From: Xanthomarina arctica
Lineage (GTDB): Bacteria; Bacteroidota; Bacteroidia; Flavobacteriales; Flavobacteriaceae
DNA length: 64,000 bases
Assembly (NCBI RefSeq): GCF_014638915.1
Contig: NZ_BMFQ01000003.1
Location: forward strand, 372,001 to 436,000
Reading direction: 5' to 3'
Shown in pieces: positions 674 to 8,782 of this stretch; positions within the stretch are counted from its first letter, which is position 1, and every line of letters starts with the position of its first letter. A model generated the notes under the pieces. It did no database searches. It worked only from the letters and a program-made list of their open reading frames with translations, and had not been told where the DNA came from. The translations under genes and the position numbers were made by a program.

Positions 674-1756
674 GTGGCTACAGAAAGAAAATCGGCATTA
701 GAGGAAAAAGATGGGGTCTTACAACCAGACACTATCAACACATCTTATATAGAAAAATTAAAATCTAAGCGGCATAAGCAACCCAGTACGGAAGACTTAA
801 TTTCAGGGATTTTAAAGGGAGACATTACGGCATTAAGTCGTGCCATTACTATTATAGAAAGTAAAAATCCTGCTCATTTTGAAAAAGCAAATACACTGGT
901 TACAAACTGTTTACCACACGCTAATAATTCCATAAGAATTGGCATCACAGGAGTTCCAGGTGTTGGAAAAAGCACCTTTATAGAAGTCTTTGGAACCCAT
1001 TTAACAGGTTTGGGTAAAAAAGTGGCTGTGTTGGCAGTGGACCCTAGTAGCTCTTTGACTAAGGGCAGTATTCTGGGAGATAAAACTAGAATGGAAGCAC
1101 TTGTTAAAGACCCCAATGCTTTTATTAGACCTTCAGCTTCGGGAGATTCTCTTGGTGGGGTTGCTAGAAAAACTCGTGAAACCATTATTTTATGTGAAGC
1201 GGCAGGTTTTGATACCATTATTATTGAAACTGTAGGCGTGGGACAAAGTGAAACTGCTGTTCATAGCATGGTGGATTTCTTCCTATTATTAAAACTTTCA
1301 GGCGCTGGAGACGAATTACAAGGCATTAAACGCGGTATTATTGAAATGGCTGACCTAATTGCTATCAATAAAGCTGATGGAGAGAATTTGAGATCCGCTA
1401 AAATAGCGAAACTAGAATTTAACAGAGCCCTGCATTTATACCCTAAGAAATCATCGGATTGGCAACCCATTGTCTTGCTTTGTAGTGCTATAAAAAATGA
1501 AGGAATTGGAGCCATTTGGGAACAGATTCAAGAGTACACTCTTTTAGTTTCAGAAAATGATTACTTTCAGAAGAAACGCAGTGAACAAAATAAATTCTGG
1601 TTGATTCAGACTATTGAAGATCATTTAAAATCGAACTTCTTTAATAATAAAGAGATAAAAATTGCTTTAGAAATACAGCTACAACTTATTGAAGACCATA
1701 AAACGACTCCTTTTGCGGCGGCTGATTACTTATTGGGTTTGAGGTTTGAGGTTTAA
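674..1756 (+). CDS. meaB: Methylmalonyl-CoA mutase-associated GTPase MeaB
   Basis: MeaB/ArgK is a G3E-class GTPase chaperone that protects and reloads adenosylcobalamin-dependent methylmalonyl-CoA mutase in the cytoplasm. The 360-residue frame shows the P-loop GVPGVGKST at about residues 93-101, DPSSSLTKGSILGDKTRM at 123-140, the switch region ETVGVGQSE near 185-193 and the base-specificity motif NKAD near 232. The start is GTG at 674; the N-terminal 40 residues are weakly conserved, so a slightly later start is possible. The mutase genes are not in this window. The last codons (giving LRFEV) and the stop are made of a 7-bp GAGGTTT repeat. The downstream neighbour is convergent. Confidence 0.95.
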   Translation: MATERKSALEEKDGVLQPDTINTSYIEKLKSKRHKQPSTEDLISGILKGDITALSRAITIIESKNPAHFEKANTLVTNCLPHANNSIRIGITGVPGVGKSTFIEVFGTHLTGLGKKVAVLAVDPSSSLTKGSILGDKTRMEALVKDPNAFIRPSASGDSLGGVARKTRETIILCEAAGFDTIIIETVGVGQSETAVHSMVDFFLLLKLSGAGDELQGIKRGIIEMADLIAINKADGENLRSAKIAKLEFNRALHLYPKKSSDWQPIVLLCSAIKNEGIGAIWEQIQEYTLLVSENDYFQKKRSEQNKFWLIQTIEDHLKSNFFNNKEIKIALEIQLQLIEDHKTTPFAAADYLLGLRFEV

Positions 1757-1774
1757 GGTTTGAGGTCTGAGGTT
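1741..1774. repeat. 7-bp GAGGTTT degenerate tandem repeat between convergent stops
   Basis: Five units (GAGGTTT, GAGGTTT, AAGGTTT, GAGGTCT, GAGGTT) run from the last codons of meaB to the stop of the convergent epimerase. The meaB TAA (1754-1756) lies across the unit boundary, and the epimerase stop (1773-1775) lies at the array end, so both genes end inside the repeat. Confidence 0.85.
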
Positions 1775-2717
1775 AATTTTCAAAATTAGCCTGATACCAT
1801 TCTACTTGTTTTCTAACTCCTTCCAGTAAAGTAGTCTGAGGATTGTAATCAAGTAAGTCTCTAGCCTTGTCTATAATGGCTTTGGTACGAAGTTGATCTC
1901 CTGCCCTAGCCTCAACATGGTTTATCTTAATAGATTTCCCTATAACAGCTTCTACAGCTTCAATACCATCTTGGGTAGTATGTTCTACTTCTGTTCCTAG
2001 ATTAATAATCTCTCCATCTACAACAACTTCTTTGCCAATTATACTAACAATACCATCCACAATATCTCCAACATAGGTAAAACTACGTAAATGGGTTGCG
2101 CTACCTTCATATAAAGGAAAGGAATCGTTATTAAAGGCACAGGCAATTAATTTGGTGTACATTTTTTCTGGTCTTTCACGTGGTCCAATAACAGAATACA
2201 ATCTTAAGGAACAGGTTTTCATCTGTTTTTCTCTTGATTTTTGAAGCACCAATTGTTCTGCTGCTAATTTAGTTACTCCATAATGAGAGGCAGGTTCCGG
2301 AGCCATACTTTCGGGAAAGGTGGCTTCCAAACCATAAATAGAGGAGGTTCCAATATTAACAAACATTTTTAAGTCGGTTAATTGTTGGGCATAATCCATC
2401 AAATTTTTAGTAGCCAAGATGTTATTTGTGAAATAATCTTCGAAAGTCGAAGTTTTAGAAATTCCTGGTTGTGCAGCAAAATGAAAGATGTATTCAATAT
2501 CATTTGGTAAGGCATCTTTTAAGTCAGCATCTCTTAAATCTTTTTTAATAACAGAAATACCCTTATCGGCAAGCGCTTTTTCATTTAATTCCTTCAAGGC
2601 TACGCTGTAATATGGTGAATAATTATCCACTCCTATCACTTCATGTCCCAAGCTCTGTAAACGTTCTGCTGTATGAGAACCAATAAATCCGACGGCTCCT
2701 GTTACTAAAATTTTCAT
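1773..2717 (-). CDS. NAD-dependent nucleotide-sugar epimerase/dehydratase (UDP-glucuronate 4-epimerase-like)
   Basis: Extended short-chain dehydrogenase of 314 residues. The Rossmann motif GAVGFIGSH has glycines at 7, 10 and 13. The active site shows S125/S126 and YGVTK with Y146 and K150. Extended SDRs with this pattern interconvert UDP-sugars; similarity of the overall layout suggests a UDP-glucuronate/UDP-galacturonate-type epimerase, but the substrate cannot be read from the sequence. It diverges from the GT2-LAB_N-GT39 operon across a 156-bp spacer, so it may supply that operon's sugar donor. The C-terminus abuts the GAGGTTT array shared with meaB. Confidence 0.88.
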   Translation of the reverse strand: MKILVTGAVGFIGSHTAERLQSLGHEVIGVDNYSPYYSVALKELNEKALADKGISVIKKDLRDADLKDALPNDIEYIFHFAAQPGISKTSTFEDYFTNNILATKNLMDYAQQLTDLKMFVNIGTSSIYGLEATFPESMAPEPASHYGVTKLAAEQLVLQKSREKQMKTCSLRLYSVIGPRERPEKMYTKLIACAFNNDSFPLYEGSATHLRSFTYVGDIVDGIVSIIGKEVVVDGEIINLGTEVEHTTQDGIEAVEAVIGKSIKINHVEARAGDQLRTKAIIDKARDLLDYNPQTTLLEGVRKQVEWYQANFEN

Positions 2718-5842: not shown

Positions 5843-6415
5843 TTAGTGCAGTTTGTATTTATGCTTTAAAAACTGACTTAATTTATAAAACATAAGTCCT
5901 GAAAGCCCTCCAAAAATAAATCCACATAAGATATCTAATGGATAATGAACTCCGATATAGATTCTACTATACCCCATTAATGCAGACCAGAACAGTAAGA
6001 TGAAGATCATATATTTGTACTTATGTCTTAACAACAAACCTGCAAAAACGGCTACTGCCATGGAGTTTGATGCATGGCCAGAAAAATAACCAAATTGTCC
6101 CCCACAACCTTCCTTAACAATTCTCATGACTTCTTTGACACCTACTTGATGACAAGGTCTTAATCGTTCAAAACTATCCTTAAACAAATTGGTGATTTGG
6201 TCTGTAAACGTAATCATAAGGGCAATTGTAACCAGAATAATTAAAAACATTCTAGGCGTATGTTGTCTGAAAATTAAAAATAATAGAATAGCATAGAACG
6301 GAATCCAATAAAACTTGGTTGTATAAAACATCCAAAAGGCATCCCAAGAGGTACTGCCTAAATTATTAAGATATAAAAAAAGTTCTGTGTCTAATTGTAC
6401 TAATTGTTCTAACAT
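5843..6415 (-). CDS. PAP2-family membrane phosphatase
   Basis: A 190-residue type 2 phosphatidic acid phosphatase with all three catalytic motifs: KDSFERLRP (KX6RP), FSGH in GYFSGHASNS, and SRIYIGVHYPLD (SRX5HX3D). Five or six hydrophobic segments surround them. Family members dephosphorylate undecaprenyl pyrophosphate, lipid A or phosphatidylglycerol phosphate. The tail-to-tail position with the GT39 operon favours a lipid-carrier or lipid A role. Its start codon is 6 bases from an inverted repeat, and its upstream region is the 9-bp tandem array, so array length may affect its expression (inference). Confidence 0.9.
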   Translation of the reverse strand: MLEQLVQLDTELFLYLNNLGSTSWDAFWMFYTTKFYWIPFYAILLFLIFRQHTPRMFLIILVTIALMITFTDQITNLFKDSFERLRPCHQVGVKEVMRIVKEGCGGQFGYFSGHASNSMAVAVFAGLLLRHKYKYMIFILLFWSALMGYSRIYIGVHYPLDILCGFIFGGLSGLMFYKLSQFLKHKYKLH

Positions 6416-6421
6416 ATTTTG

Positions 6422-6452
6422 AGTGCCTAAAGTGTACTAAAGTTATAAGTGC
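6422..6452 (+). repeat. Left 31-bp terminal inverted repeat of the repeat island
   Basis: These 31 bases (beginning AGTGCCTAAAGTGTACTAAA and ending GTTATAAGTGC) match the reverse complement of 7384-7414 at 30 of 31 positions; the only difference is A versus G at the 15th base. The copy starts 6 bases upstream of the PAP2 start codon and runs directly into the 9-bp array. Confidence 0.9.
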
Positions 6453-6462
6453 CTAGAGTTAT

Positions 6463-6588
6463 GTGTCTAAAGTGTCTAAAGTGTCTAAAGTGTCTAAAGT
6501 GTCTAAAGTGTCTAAAGTGTCTAAAGTGTCTAAAGTGTCTAAAGTGTCTAAAGTGTCTAAAGTGTCTAAAGTGTCTAAAGTGTCTAAA
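6463..6588. repeat. 9-bp tandem repeat, 14 perfect units (GTGTCTAAA)
   Basis: Fourteen uninterrupted identical copies of GTGTCTAAA (126 bp) followed by a broken copy. There is no spacer and no long reading frame, so it is neither CRISPR nor coding. It lies about 48 bp upstream of the PAP2 start and downstream of the small acidic protein gene. Perfect identity implies recent slippage expansion, so the copy number should vary between isolates. Confidence 0.97.
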
Positions 6589-6653
6589 GTGTAAAATAAA
6601 TAAACTTATGCTTCTTCATAGTTAAAAAGACTTAAAGTTTTGTTTGCTCTTAG

Positions 6654-6881
6654 TTAGTCATCGTAACGAGAGATTTCTCGGTCGTAGAAATCTGTAGCTT
6701 GCTGGATTAAACCTTCAGCTTCGATCTCAAGTTCTTTCTGGTCGTGCTGATCGAAATCTTCAAGCCATTCTACTTCGTCGTCTTCCAAATTGATTATAAA
6801 TCTTGGAAATTCTGTATGTATTACAAAAATTGCTGTTGGATAATCTGTGTTATCGCCGAGTAAGAATTTTGGGAAGTCCAT
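6654..6881 (-). CDS. Small acidic protein of unknown function
   Basis: A 75-residue soluble, strongly acidic protein with no signal peptide. The N-terminal half is hydrophobic-patterned (PTAIFVIHTEFPRFIINL) and resembles a small beta unit; the C-terminal half is an acidic helix (EDDEVEWLEDFDQHDQKELE). I do not recognise a named domain. It sits inside the inverted-repeat-bounded island, with the 9-bp array on its 3' side and the 16-bp array directly before its start. It may be a resident gene around which repeats accumulated, or island cargo. Balanced composition and a plausible ATG support it as real. Confidence 0.7.
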   Translation of the reverse strand: MDFPKFLLGDNTDYPTAIFVIHTEFPRFIINLEDDEVEWLEDFDQHDQKELEIEAEGLIQQATDFYDREISRYDD

Positions 6882-6884
6882 GTT

Positions 6885-6971
6885 TAAGTTATAAGTATTT
6901 AAAGTTATAAGTGCCTAGAGTTATAAGTGTCTAGAGTTATGAGTGTTTAAAGTTATGAGTGTCTAGAGTTT
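6885..6971. repeat. 16-bp degenerate tandem array (AAAGTTATAAGTGCCT-type)
   Basis: Five 16-bp units start at 6885, 6901, 6917, 6933 and 6949, followed by a partial unit. They alternate AAAGTTAT/AGAGTTAT with AAGTGCCT/GAGTGTCT. Bases 6901-6924 are identical to 6439-6462 in the left end, so all arrays of the island belong to one family. The array separates the four-helix-bundle gene from the small acidic gene. Confidence 0.9.
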
Positions 6972-6977
6972 GTGTTT

Positions 6978-7331
6978 TTATAGTTTGTTTGCAATGGATG
7001 TAAATATAGCCAGTAGTTCTTTAGATTCAGCCCTTAATGACTTTAAATTATCCATTTTACTCCAATTTAGAGTTTCAATAATTTCTAACCAATAATCTGT
7101 CTCACTTGCTTCTGCAACACTAATCTTTATTTTGTTTTTAAAATCGTTTGGACTTCTAGACCTATTCGCTTCTCGGTAATTGGCACCAATACTAGTGCCT
7201 GATTTTGAGAGTTGATTTCTTAGAACTAAAGCTTCAGGTGTGTGCGGTAAACTGCTGGAAAACATTAATACATCTATGGCAAACTTTACAGTTCTCTTTT
7301 CTAATTGCTGCCCAAATTCTTTATTTGTCAT
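6978..7331 (-). CDS. Four-helix-bundle protein, 23S rRNA intervening-sequence (IVP/S23) family
   Basis: A 117-residue all-helical protein with the family signature SGTSIGANYREANRSRSP (about 46-63), followed by DFKNKIKISVAEASETDYWLEI. Relatives are encoded inside 23S rRNA intervening sequences of some bacteria and resemble the Avd accessory protein of diversity-generating retroelements; they form small oligomers with a basic face thought to bind nucleic acid. Here it is free-standing. It lies inside a 1-kb island with 31-bp inverted ends and three related repeat arrays, which suggests a link between protein and repeats (inference). No reverse transcriptase or rRNA is nearby. Confidence 0.9.
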   Translation of the reverse strand: MTNKEFGQQLEKRTVKFAIDVLMFSSSLPHTPEALVLRNQLSKSGTSIGANYREANRSRSPNDFKNKIKISVAEASETDYWLEIIETLNWSKMDNLKSLRAESKELLAIFTSIANKL

Positions 7332-7383
7332 AATCTCTGTGTATAAAATTCCAATAAACTACAAGTAGCCTAGGCACTTTAGA

Positions 7384-7414
7384 GCACTTATAACTTTAGC
7401 ACACTTTAGGCACT
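7384..7414 (-). repeat. Right 31-bp terminal inverted repeat of the repeat island
   Basis: Reverse complement of the left end (6422-6452) with one mismatch. It overlaps the 3' end of the MATE gene: the final Ser-Ala codons and the TAA (7406-7414 read on the minus strand) come from the repeat. A further partial unit (CTAGGCACTTTAGAG) lies on its inner side at 7370-7384. Confidence 0.9.
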
Positions 7415-8782
7415 TTGTGAAATCAATTTTTTAGTCAGATAATTAAATCGAAGATACAATAAAATAGCCGCAGTGGTTAAGCCAGCCAGTAGTCCCATCC
7501 AGATTCCGAAACTTCCGTACATTTCTTCTTTTCCTAAGAAAAAACTAATAGGAAAGCCTATTACCCAATATGAAATAAAGGTTATAATGGTTGGTATTTT
7601 CACATCTTGCAAACCTCTTAAAGCTCCAAGCATCACTACTTGTATGCTATCGCTTATTTGAAAGAACGCCGCAGCAATTAATAATTTGGAAGCAATGCTG
7701 ACCACTTCGGTGTTATCTGCCAGATTTTCTAAATCGTTGAAATCGACATAGATTTTTGGAAGTTGCTTATGGAATATAAAAAAGAGTAAACCAAAGATAC
7801 AGGCGAAAATAAAACCTAATAAAAATATTGAAAATGCGATACGTCTTAGTTCTAAATAATTCTTTAAGCCTTTTTGGTTTCCAACACGAATCATGGATGT
7901 GACACTTAATCCCATAGCAATCATGAAAGTCATTGACGATAGGTTTAATGCAATCTGATTTGCCGCTTGAGGGTTTTTACCTAATAAGCCACTAAGCCAA
8001 ATGGCCGCCGTAAAAATAGCCACTTCAAAAAACATTTGCATGGCGCTAGGTGACCCTAAATTCATCAGCTTTTTAAGCATCAATTTATTTAAAGTAAAGA
8101 ATTTGATATTCGTGACATAGGCTTTGGATTTCTCTTTGCCTTTAAGTAACCACCAAATGTAGGCTACCATAACAAGACGAGACACTAAGGTTCCATAAGC
8201 GGCTCCAACGATTCCCATTTCTGGAAATCCGAACTTACCAAAAATTAGCAGGTAATTTAGAATAACGTTTATCACGTTTGCCAAAATAGTGGCATACATT
8301 GGGTATCTAGTCATGGACAAGCCATCACTAAACTGTTTAAAGGCTTGAAAAATAATTAAAGGAATGATAGACGCTGCTACTAAGTTTAAATAGGGAATGG
8401 CCAGTTCGACTACCTCAATAGGTTGTTTCATTAGATACATAAGGGGTTTTGCAAAAAGCAAAATTCCGAATAATGCAATCCCTAAAACCGTACATAAAAA
8501 CAAGCCATGTTTGAAAGCCGATTTTCCTCTAGCAAAGTTTTTAGAGGCATCTGCTTCGGCAACCAAAGGTGTAATAGCCGTTGAAAAACCAATTCCTAAA
8601 GACATGGCAATAAACATAAAACTATTTCCTAAGGATACGGCCGCTAATTCGGCTGTTCCAATTTGTCCAACCATGATATTGTCGACAAATTGTACAAAGG
8701 TATGACCAAGCATACCCAACATAACTGGAGCCGATAGTTTCCAGTTGTATTTAAATTCTTTCGTGTAGTTACTTAATACCAT
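7406..8782 (-). CDS. MATE-family multidrug/cation antiporter (NorM-like)
   Basis: A 458-residue inner-membrane protein with about twelve helices in two homologous halves, typical MATE length, and family motifs such as MLGHTFVQFVDNIMVGQIGTAELAA near residues 23-48 and the MRVGN-like SMIRVGNQKG near 297. MATE proteins export cationic drugs or metabolites using Na+ or H+ gradients. The substrate is not predictable. The last residues, SQSA, are encoded partly by the right inverted repeat of the adjacent island, so the native C-terminus may have been replaced. The gene stands alone. Confidence 0.93.
   Translation of the reverse strand: MVLSNYTKEFKYNWKLSAPVMLGMLGHTFVQFVDNIMVGQIGTAELAAVSLGNSFMFIAMSLGIGFSTAITPLVAEADASKNFARGKSAFKHGLFLCTVLGIALFGILLFAKPLMYLMKQPIEVVELAIPYLNLVAASIIPLIIFQAFKQFSDGLSMTRYPMYATILANVINVILNYLLIFGKFGFPEMGIVGAAYGTLVSRLVMVAYIWWLLKGKEKSKAYVTNIKFFTLNKLMLKKLMNLGSPSAMQMFFEVAIFTAAIWLSGLLGKNPQAANQIALNLSSMTFMIAMGLSVTSMIRVGNQKGLKNYLELRRIAFSIFLLGFIFACIFGLLFFIFHKQLPKIYVDFNDLENLADNTEVVSIASKLLIAAAFFQISDSIQVVMLGALRGLQDVKIPTIITFISYWVIGFPISFFLGKEEMYGSFGIWMGLLAGLTTAAILLYLRFNYLTKKLISQSA

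Follow-up and report, generated by a model that had tools for sequence, protein, structure and literature searches.

In the repetitive extragenic palindromic (REP) sequences and REPINs that belong to REP-associated tyrosine transposases (RAYT), the gene lies between repeats of the family to which it belongs, and gene-free inverted copies of these repeats occur elsewhere in the genome; the short tandemly repeated repetitive (STRR) sequences of cyanobacteria are arrays of heptamer repeats. Orphan heptamer arrays have also been described with the unit TAACTGA in Beggiatoaceae, cyanobacteria and Bacteroidetes (PMC4679880) and with the unit GGGNATC, preferably between aligned genes and partly in inverted pairs, in Xanthomonas and Nostoc (PMC4692102), in both cases with no settled cause. 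The intervening sequence (IVS) of Coxiella, in which an S23p open reading frame (ORF) is enclosed by terminal inverted repeats, has been discussed as being a mobile element or the relic of a transposition (PMC4990558). Here we compare with these systems a small unit found in a 64,000-nucleotide stretch of the genome of Xanthomarina arctica (contig NZ_BMFQ01000003.1, positions 372,001 to 436,000; the whole stretch is hereafter the window and the genome G000), in which a single gene of the IVP/S23 family lies between two arrays of short repeats. In our judgement such units probably represent a widespread minimal element, consisting of one IVP/S23 four-helix-bundle gene between two, usually inverted, short-repeat arrays and spreading among operon gaps. 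The observations suggest an overlooked tiny mobile element and a possible source of some of the unexplained seven-letter repeats of bacteria.

The gene of the window unit (positions 6978 to 7331, minus strand) encodes a four-helix-bundle protein of 117 amino acids. It belongs to the IVP/S23 family, both curated cut-offs being exceeded (PF05635, E-value 5e-19, 68.8 bits against a cut-off of 33.8; TIGR02436, E-value 1e-24, 86.5 bits against 24), and its AlphaFold2 model is a four-helix bundle with a mean pLDDT of 95. The best matches of the model in the PDB (E ≤ 0.001) are two S23/IVP proteins, 2rld (S23 family) and 2gsc (XCC0516), each entry having five chains. The resemblance to Avd noted in the preliminary description of the locus holds at a lower rank, with weaker matches (E 0.009 to 0.03) to Avd itself (4dwl, TM 0.73) and to a chain of the diversity-generating-retroelement complex 8ub7. 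Both IVP and Avd proteins are presumably pentamers. The upstream arm of the unit (7371 to 7416, minus strand) is composed of the sense units AAGTGCCTA, AAGTGTGCTA, AAGTTAT and AAGTGCTCTA, and the downstream arm (6884 to 6970, minus strand), which is inverted relative to it, contains a tandem array (6886 to 6970, 5.3 copies, 85% matches) of the 16-bp unit AAGTTATAAGTGTCTA, itself made up of 7 + 9 nt. Alignment of the upstream flank with the reverse complement of the downstream flank gives a score of 35, which is reached by 0.9% of swapped pairs.

The preliminary description had treated positions 6422 to 7414 as one island. Its individual parts were recovered as described: the inverted ends at 6422 to 6452 and 7384 to 7414 (31 nt, complementary at 30 of 31 positions, 97%), the 14 perfect 9-bp units (tandem array at 6463 to 6592, 14.4 copies, 100% matches), the 16-bp array of the same family, the small acidic gene beside the IVP gene, and no transposase among the four ORFs scanned against Pfam and NCBIfam. 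The island itself has to be divided. The gene for a MATE transporter (7406 to 8782, minus strand) is present in one copy in each of the eight genomes of the genus set, which includes G000 (the others are G001 to G007), and in all eight, as read from the DNA by eye, it is followed by the gene for a 75-residue acidic protein (6654 to 6881, minus strand; no match in the Pfam or NCBIfam profile libraries) and then by the PAP2 phosphatase gene (5843 to 6415, minus strand; ORF and profile match). In six genomes (L061-L065, L067) the MATE stop codon leads directly, or past a short array, to the acidic gene with no IVP gene between them, and G005 carries the same insertion in broken form. Because six of the eight genomes lack the IVP gene and all eight have the acidic gene, the insert is limited to the IVP gene and its two arms, about 530 bp between the MATE and acidic genes; the acidic gene, conserved in the host operon, lies outside the element, and the possibility that it is cargo is rejected. 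The junction in relatives thus has the insert-free form and the normal MATE end for which the preliminary description had told us to look, and the proposed replacement of the last MATE codons is borne out, because the match to the MATE protein covers residues 1-455 of 458 in the six relatives without IVP and 1-458 in the insert-bearing G005. The upstream arm overlaps and terminates the MATE frame, the last three residues and the stop codon of the window copy falling within it. The left part of the former island (6422 to 6592, minus strand), which holds the 14 perfect 9-nt units, is a separate solo array of the same letters in the next gap, between the acidic and PAP2 genes and outside the insert; vestiges of its letters are visible by eye in the same gap of the IVP-free genus genomes. 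As a separate observation, the MATE/acidic gap of the IVP-free genomes G007, G004, G002 and G001 (L061-L064) contains a CAACTAA heptad array that repeats the MATE stop region.

IVP genes are abundant in these bacteria, with 14 copies in G000 and 61 matches in the eight genus genomes; at least one is carried by 118 of the 149 genomes sampled from the family and by 193 of the 247 sampled from the phylum. A search of 50,697 phage records with one IVP query at E 1e-5 gave no match. For the arm test, the 160 nt upstream of each gene were aligned to the reverse complement of the 160 nt downstream, arms swapped between loci serving as control. The genus set (61 loci) and a set of 20 loci from four non-Bacteroidota genomes comprise every match listed by the search; the family, phylum and named sets consist of best-scoring matches, not random ones. 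Two genus loci with short flanks at contig ends were dropped, 78 of the 80 named loci were usable (47 + 28 + 3), each of the four genomes has one locus in the named set (three of the 20 loci are shared with it), and 14 cyanobacterial plasmid loci were fetched from 32 matching records. Cognate arms of the 59 genus loci scored 26.6 versus 17.8 for swapped arms (0 of 20000 permutations; 28 of 59 loci in the top 5%). The same excess was obtained, each time with 0 of 10000 permutations, for 28 loci of the family (26.5 versus 17.7; 12 of 28 in the top 5%), 28 of the phylum (28.6 versus 17.1; 13 of 28), 47 usable of 48 named Bacteroidota loci (30.7 versus 17.0; 35 of 47), 28 usable of 29 named loci from other phyla (31.3 versus 16.3; 19 of 28), the 14 cyanobacterial plasmid loci (36.1 versus 18.3; 10 of 14) and all 20 IVP loci of the four non-Bacteroidota genomes (41.6 versus 16.0; 18 of 20). 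The three named loci of Ignavibacteria/Balneolota, too few for a permutation test, gave 36.0 versus 16.8 (1626 of 10000). Altogether, 222 distinct loci have a mean of 30.2 for cognate and 16.7 for swapped arms, and for 142 of them the cognate score lies beyond the 95th percentile of swapped pairs. The signal is confined to the immediate flanks: in 140-nt windows, 64% of loci exceed the 95th percentile beside the gene and 4-6% do so at 140, 280 or 420 nt outward.

The repeat unit of the arms is most often 7 nt, occasionally 8 or 9. Across 191 loci, the excess of identity at lag 7 amounts to +0.093 on the upstream side and +0.088 on the downstream side (106 control gaps of G000 gave -0.008), with echoes at lags 14 and 21 and, weakly, at lag 8; among the 222 loci this period is strong up to 60 nt from the gene, weak up to 120 nt and absent beyond. 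The window element, with units of 9 and 7+9 nt, is off this norm. The letters are not shared by all IVP genes. The preliminary description had proposed counting how often the same ends flank IVP genes. In G000 they do not recur at the others, the AAGTGYCTA array accompanying one of the 14 IVP genes, the window copy; two of the other 13 have a single AAGTGYCTA within 1.5 kb and eleven have none, which disposes of the idea that the same letters surround every IVP gene. Arms of the AGTGCC type are found elsewhere in the genus at L033 and at the broken L056, and several other IVP genes of G000 lie between inverted short repeats of their own, with different letters. Each protein subfamily has letters of its own in its repeats, and these go with the protein to other sites. 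Among gene pairs at different sites (94 pairs, six of which were dropped after six-frame comparison of the flanks, leaving 88 at 60% protein identity or more), arm similarity rises with protein identity, from 15.6 below 55% to 20.4 at 60-65% (62 pairs), 24.8 at 65-80% (21 pairs) and 35.8 above 80% (five pairs), and the 88 pairs together average 22.3 versus 15.6 (0 of 2000 permutations). For example, the IVP proteins of L006, L007/L041 and L004, which are 66-85% identical and lie between sdhA and sdhB, between the thiolase and acyl-CoA dehydrogenase genes and upstream of hppD, have similar arms, as do those of L012 and L033 (71% identical) in clearly different operons.

At the three operon gaps examined, units are present in some genomes of the genus and absent from others, and at two of the three the occupants are different IVP subfamilies with different arms. 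Between sdhA and sdhB, four copies are empty, their gap measuring 10 nt with the stop codon counted in (G001, the first copy of G003, G004, G005), and four measured copies are occupied, with gaps of 434-504 nt (G000, the second copy of G003, G006, G007); the gap of G002 is occupied as well, its length being excluded because the sdhA stop was not found amid unread bases. This one gap hosts three IVP subfamilies with different arms. Between the thiolase and acyl-CoA dehydrogenase genes, the gap is empty in two genomes (26 and 27 nt) and occupied in three (419-442 nt), one locus is cut by a contig end and one genome has no match; in the remaining genome, G005, the gap (L308) is gene-free and 102 nt long, with AGTCTAGAATATAG-type letters resembling those of arms, and might be a deletion derivative of an IVP unit. 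The two sdhB copies of G003 (L229 and L232), one site empty and one occupied, are 96% and 80% identical to the query in an assembly that is 75% complete, and could reflect contamination or a second operon. NCBIfam confirmed the identities of sdhA, sdhB, atpA, atpG, thiolase, acyl-CoA dehydrogenase, ffh, folD and hppD; the gene preceding hppD had no NCBIfam match.

The IVP gene is in sense with both neighbours at 57 of 58 scorable genus loci (of 61) and at 27 of 27 family loci (of 28), or, when ORFs of at least 100 amino acids are required, at 55 of 55 and 25 of 25 fully scorable loci. Same-strand neighbours on both sides are found for 156 of 309 (50%) ordinary genes of G000. The strict sense rule holds in the genus and family and is looser elsewhere: 24 of 27 in the phylum (of 28), 38 of 45 for named Bacteroidota (of 48), 15 of 23 for other phyla (of 29) and 12 of 16 for the four non-Bacteroidota genomes (of 20), these counts resting on neighbour strands from a simple ORF caller (ORFs of at least 60 amino acids) that is weak in GC-rich genomes. 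By annotation, 10 of the 14 cyanobacterial plasmid copies are in sense, three are antisense between co-directional genes and one is mixed. The sense rule may reflect a need for the host promoter. Among the plasmid copies, L234 of a Nostoc edaphicum plasmid lies antisense between nrdB and nrdA and has (TAGGGAG)n arms, a strand of which could in principle form G-quadruplexes. Three others lie in CRISPR operons, in the order cas6/IVP/cas4 twice and cas10/IVP/cmr3 once (L235, L243, L245). A survey of rare CRISPR systems (PMC10910872) mentions IVP in the legend of a figure, where it is possibly a passenger.

Some of the repeats also occur without a gene. The pattern AGTGYCTARAGT is found 56 times in G000 and once when read backward, which puts it well beyond what chance would give; 19 occurrences fall in the island, 24 belong to a single array at C4:448807-449025 and 13 are elsewhere. 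Of the 11 places that these occupy, some of the single matches perhaps being due to chance, 10 lack an IVP gene. Gene-free inverted pairs are recognizable by eye in at least three of them (L281, L282, L285), and L073 is a further inverted pair with similar letters. These data support a REP-like derivative class for the AGTGCC subfamily only. The REP-like repeat system envisaged in the preliminary description survives as far as gene-free inverted pairs are concerned and lacks support as regards the nuclease: nothing tested shows one, and the protein is a four-helix bundle. It had also been proposed there that the element idea should be given up if the repeats were as common around unrelated genes as around IVP genes; taken literally, the AGTGCC repeat goes against the element on this count, with 10 of 11 places in G000 devoid of an IVP gene. 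The idea is kept in a broader form because many IVP subfamilies have a repeat of their own in the same inverted layout. Two solo arrays deserve separate mention: the array at C4:448807-449025 (L278), where the 24 overlapping matches are to the 9-mer array of the window, lies between divergent genes and has no IVP gene, and a (GGTTTGA)n heptad array without an IVP gene is present in the window at 1717 to 1788 (plus strand), at the end of the ORF 674 to 1756, its letters resembling the arms of another G000 IVP gene, L010 (GAGGTTTGAGG).

The proposed mechanism is as follows. The IVP protein, probably as a pentamer, would bind its own repeat in DNA, the arms serving as recognition ends; the unit, selfish or in part domesticated, would spread from one transcribed operon gap to another, borrowing the host promoter; and gene-free arrays would be derivatives that are acted upon in trans, in the way that a RAYT acts on REP sequences. 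The cutting and joining enzyme would be supplied by the host or another element, because the unit encodes no recognizable one. The private letters, the mostly mirror-image layout and the tandem short units point to arms that are recognized by the protein. As a guess, a pentamer in contact with roughly five units of 7 nt would cover 35 nt, close to the 29-nt median of the aligned arms. A bolder proposal, which we put forward tentatively and with considerable doubt, is that IVP units form a distinct bacteria-wide mobile class in which a non-enzymatic pentamer and a heptad alphabet co-evolve as a recognition code, and that these units seed and maintain many of the orphan heptamer arrays (STRR, TAACTGA, GGGNATC) and jump into transcribed gaps with host enzymes.

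Several observations weigh against an inverted-arm mobile element. At the 5% level no inverted arm is individually detectable for 31 of the 59 genus loci, nor for 80 of the 222 in the combined set, so that many arms are decayed or absent. Ordinary co-directional genes of G000 show a small arm excess as well (19.3 versus 18.9, 393 of 10000 permutations, n = 150; in a second set, 20.2 versus 19.5, 357 of 10000, n = 63), far smaller than that of IVP genes. Flank similarity in direct orientation exceeds the 95th percentile of swapped pairs at 37 of 222 loci (the strongest being L036, L049, L235, L166 and L138), so that the layout is not invariably inverted; 22 of the 37 have an inverted match too and 15 have none detectable, the medians for all 222 cognate and swapped pairs in this orientation being 17 and 16. 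The opposite-orientation control of the different-site comparison also rises with protein identity, less steeply (14.4, 16.1, 19.9). Comparison of target sites by eye at sdhA/sdhB and thiolase/acyl-CoA dehydrogenase revealed no consistent duplication, and the case for movement is indirect, resting on presence/absence and paralogy with no movement observed. Recognition of the arms at the level of DNA is likewise something that we infer. Clear gene-free dispersal was found for AGTGCC alone and in G000 alone. The other genus genomes have one to three AGTGYCTARAGT matches each (controls 0-1), including a single match in G003, which has an intact related IVP gene in its 75%-complete assembly; in G000, k-mers of the arms of all 14 IVP genes (462 kb) gave 1373 matches versus 1219 reversed. 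For k-mers of congeners' arms, the G000 test gave 2893 versus 2733.

The unit might instead act in RNA, the arms pairing in the operon mRNA and RNase III cutting the stem, as an mRNA counterpart of the IVS. The protein family is that of the 23S rRNA IVS, and the Coxiella IVS has a 28-bp stem of terminal inverted repeats and is cleaved by RNase III (PMC4990558); insertion within operons in Bacteroidota is in sense, and RNA duplexes of cognate arms are more stable than those of swapped arms (mean -39.8 versus -27.9; 57 of the 191 cognate pairs fall under the 5th percentile of swapped ones). However, the antisense RNA is about equally stable (-40.1), three of 14 cyanobacterial copies are antisense between co-directional genes, and at 15 of 222 loci the only arrays are direct ones. 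Furthermore, selection on an RNA stem found no support, the wobble asymmetry running the opposite way, with wobble-compatible transitions being fewer than incompatible ones in the combined set (97 versus 132, p = 0.02) and in the first set (74 versus 112, p = 0.007). On this balance we regard the RNA-level element as unlikely. Still less probable, in our view, is a regulatory module in which IVP represses or regulates translation through its own arrays and tunes the operon, copies being moved by ordinary recombination. Such a module would fit arrays within about 100 nt of the gene, protein-specific letters and the sense position in core-metabolism operons, but all three examined gaps are empty in some genus genomes, one gap holds different subfamilies, broken copies exist, and the host functions are mutually unrelated.

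We give very little credence to a by-product of replication, with heptad arrays arising by polymerase slippage and IVP genes as chance passengers nearby. Many bacterial genomes contain an excess of heptamers, for which slippage has been proposed (PMC4679880, PMC4692102), and solo arrays do exist; yet slippage leaves unexplained both the mirror-image matching and the arms that follow the protein subfamily, and the gaps of ordinary genes have no 7-nt period. Hardly any more plausible is a retroelement accessory, in which IVP would, like Avd, partner a reverse transcriptase acting in trans, and copies would move through RNA. The Avd-like fold speaks for it, as does the homology noted in PMC10053308, but G000, which is 99.98% complete and has 14 IVP genes, yields no RVT_1 match; three of the eight genus genomes have one.

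If IVP units are indeed selfish units with private heptad ends, then the role of IVP proteins, the abundance of heptamer arrays and the origin of the 23S rRNA IVSs would converge on one explanation; we found no account in the literature of a role of IVP outside rRNA. Because IVP genes sit inside cas, nrd, sdh and atp operons, their apparent link to these systems may only mark a passenger, a warning for guilt-by-association analyses. The pairing of protein and repeat also provides ready material for testing a nucleic-acid recognition code. In the best-ranked open-access literature, with subscription papers and preprints mostly outside this coverage, we recognized no paper that links IVP genes to heptad arrays.

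Compared with described systems, the IVP unit shares with miniature inverted-repeat transposable elements and insertion sequences the inverted ends and the presence or absence at a site; it differs from them in having no transposase and in ends that are variable arrays, not fixed terminal repeats. With Avd of diversity-generating retroelements it shares the fold, whereas the unit contains no reverse transcriptase (template and variable repeats were not searched separately). The likeness to REP sequences and RAYT lies in the gene-free copies elsewhere in G000, found for the AGTGCC family in 10 other places, of which at least three are inverted pairs by eye; the differences are a four-helix bundle in place of a Y1 tyrosine transposase and tandem short units in place of one palindrome. 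By Pfam and NCBIfam, the sole gene of the unit is IVP and no Y1 transposase gene is present in it, the rest of the genome not having been searched for RAYT. Orphan heptamer arrays likewise have 7-nt units and are mostly intergenic. Xanthomonas campestris has an IVP protein, XCC0516 (2gsc); the words S23 and helix bundle or four helix are absent from the main texts of PMC4679880 and PMC4692102, and the GGGAATC pattern was found in none of 274 genomes, a draw in which the presence of Xanthomonas is not known. The closest relative is the 23S rRNA IVS with an S23p/IVP ORF, as in Coxiella and Leptospira, which has the same protein family and an ORF between complementary ends. An Rfam scan of six loci with odd neighbours gave no match, and L119, one of these, with no neighbouring ORFs, was accordingly rejected as a 23S rRNA intron. 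Unlike the IVS, the window unit lies between protein genes (MATE and the small acidic gene) and not in 23S rRNA, and the arms of IVP units are subfamily-private, heptad-type arrays with no sign of selection on RNA pairing. That 23S rRNA IVSs combine an IVP protein with inverted ends was known already; what appears new is that IVP genes are tied to private heptad arrays between the genes of operons.

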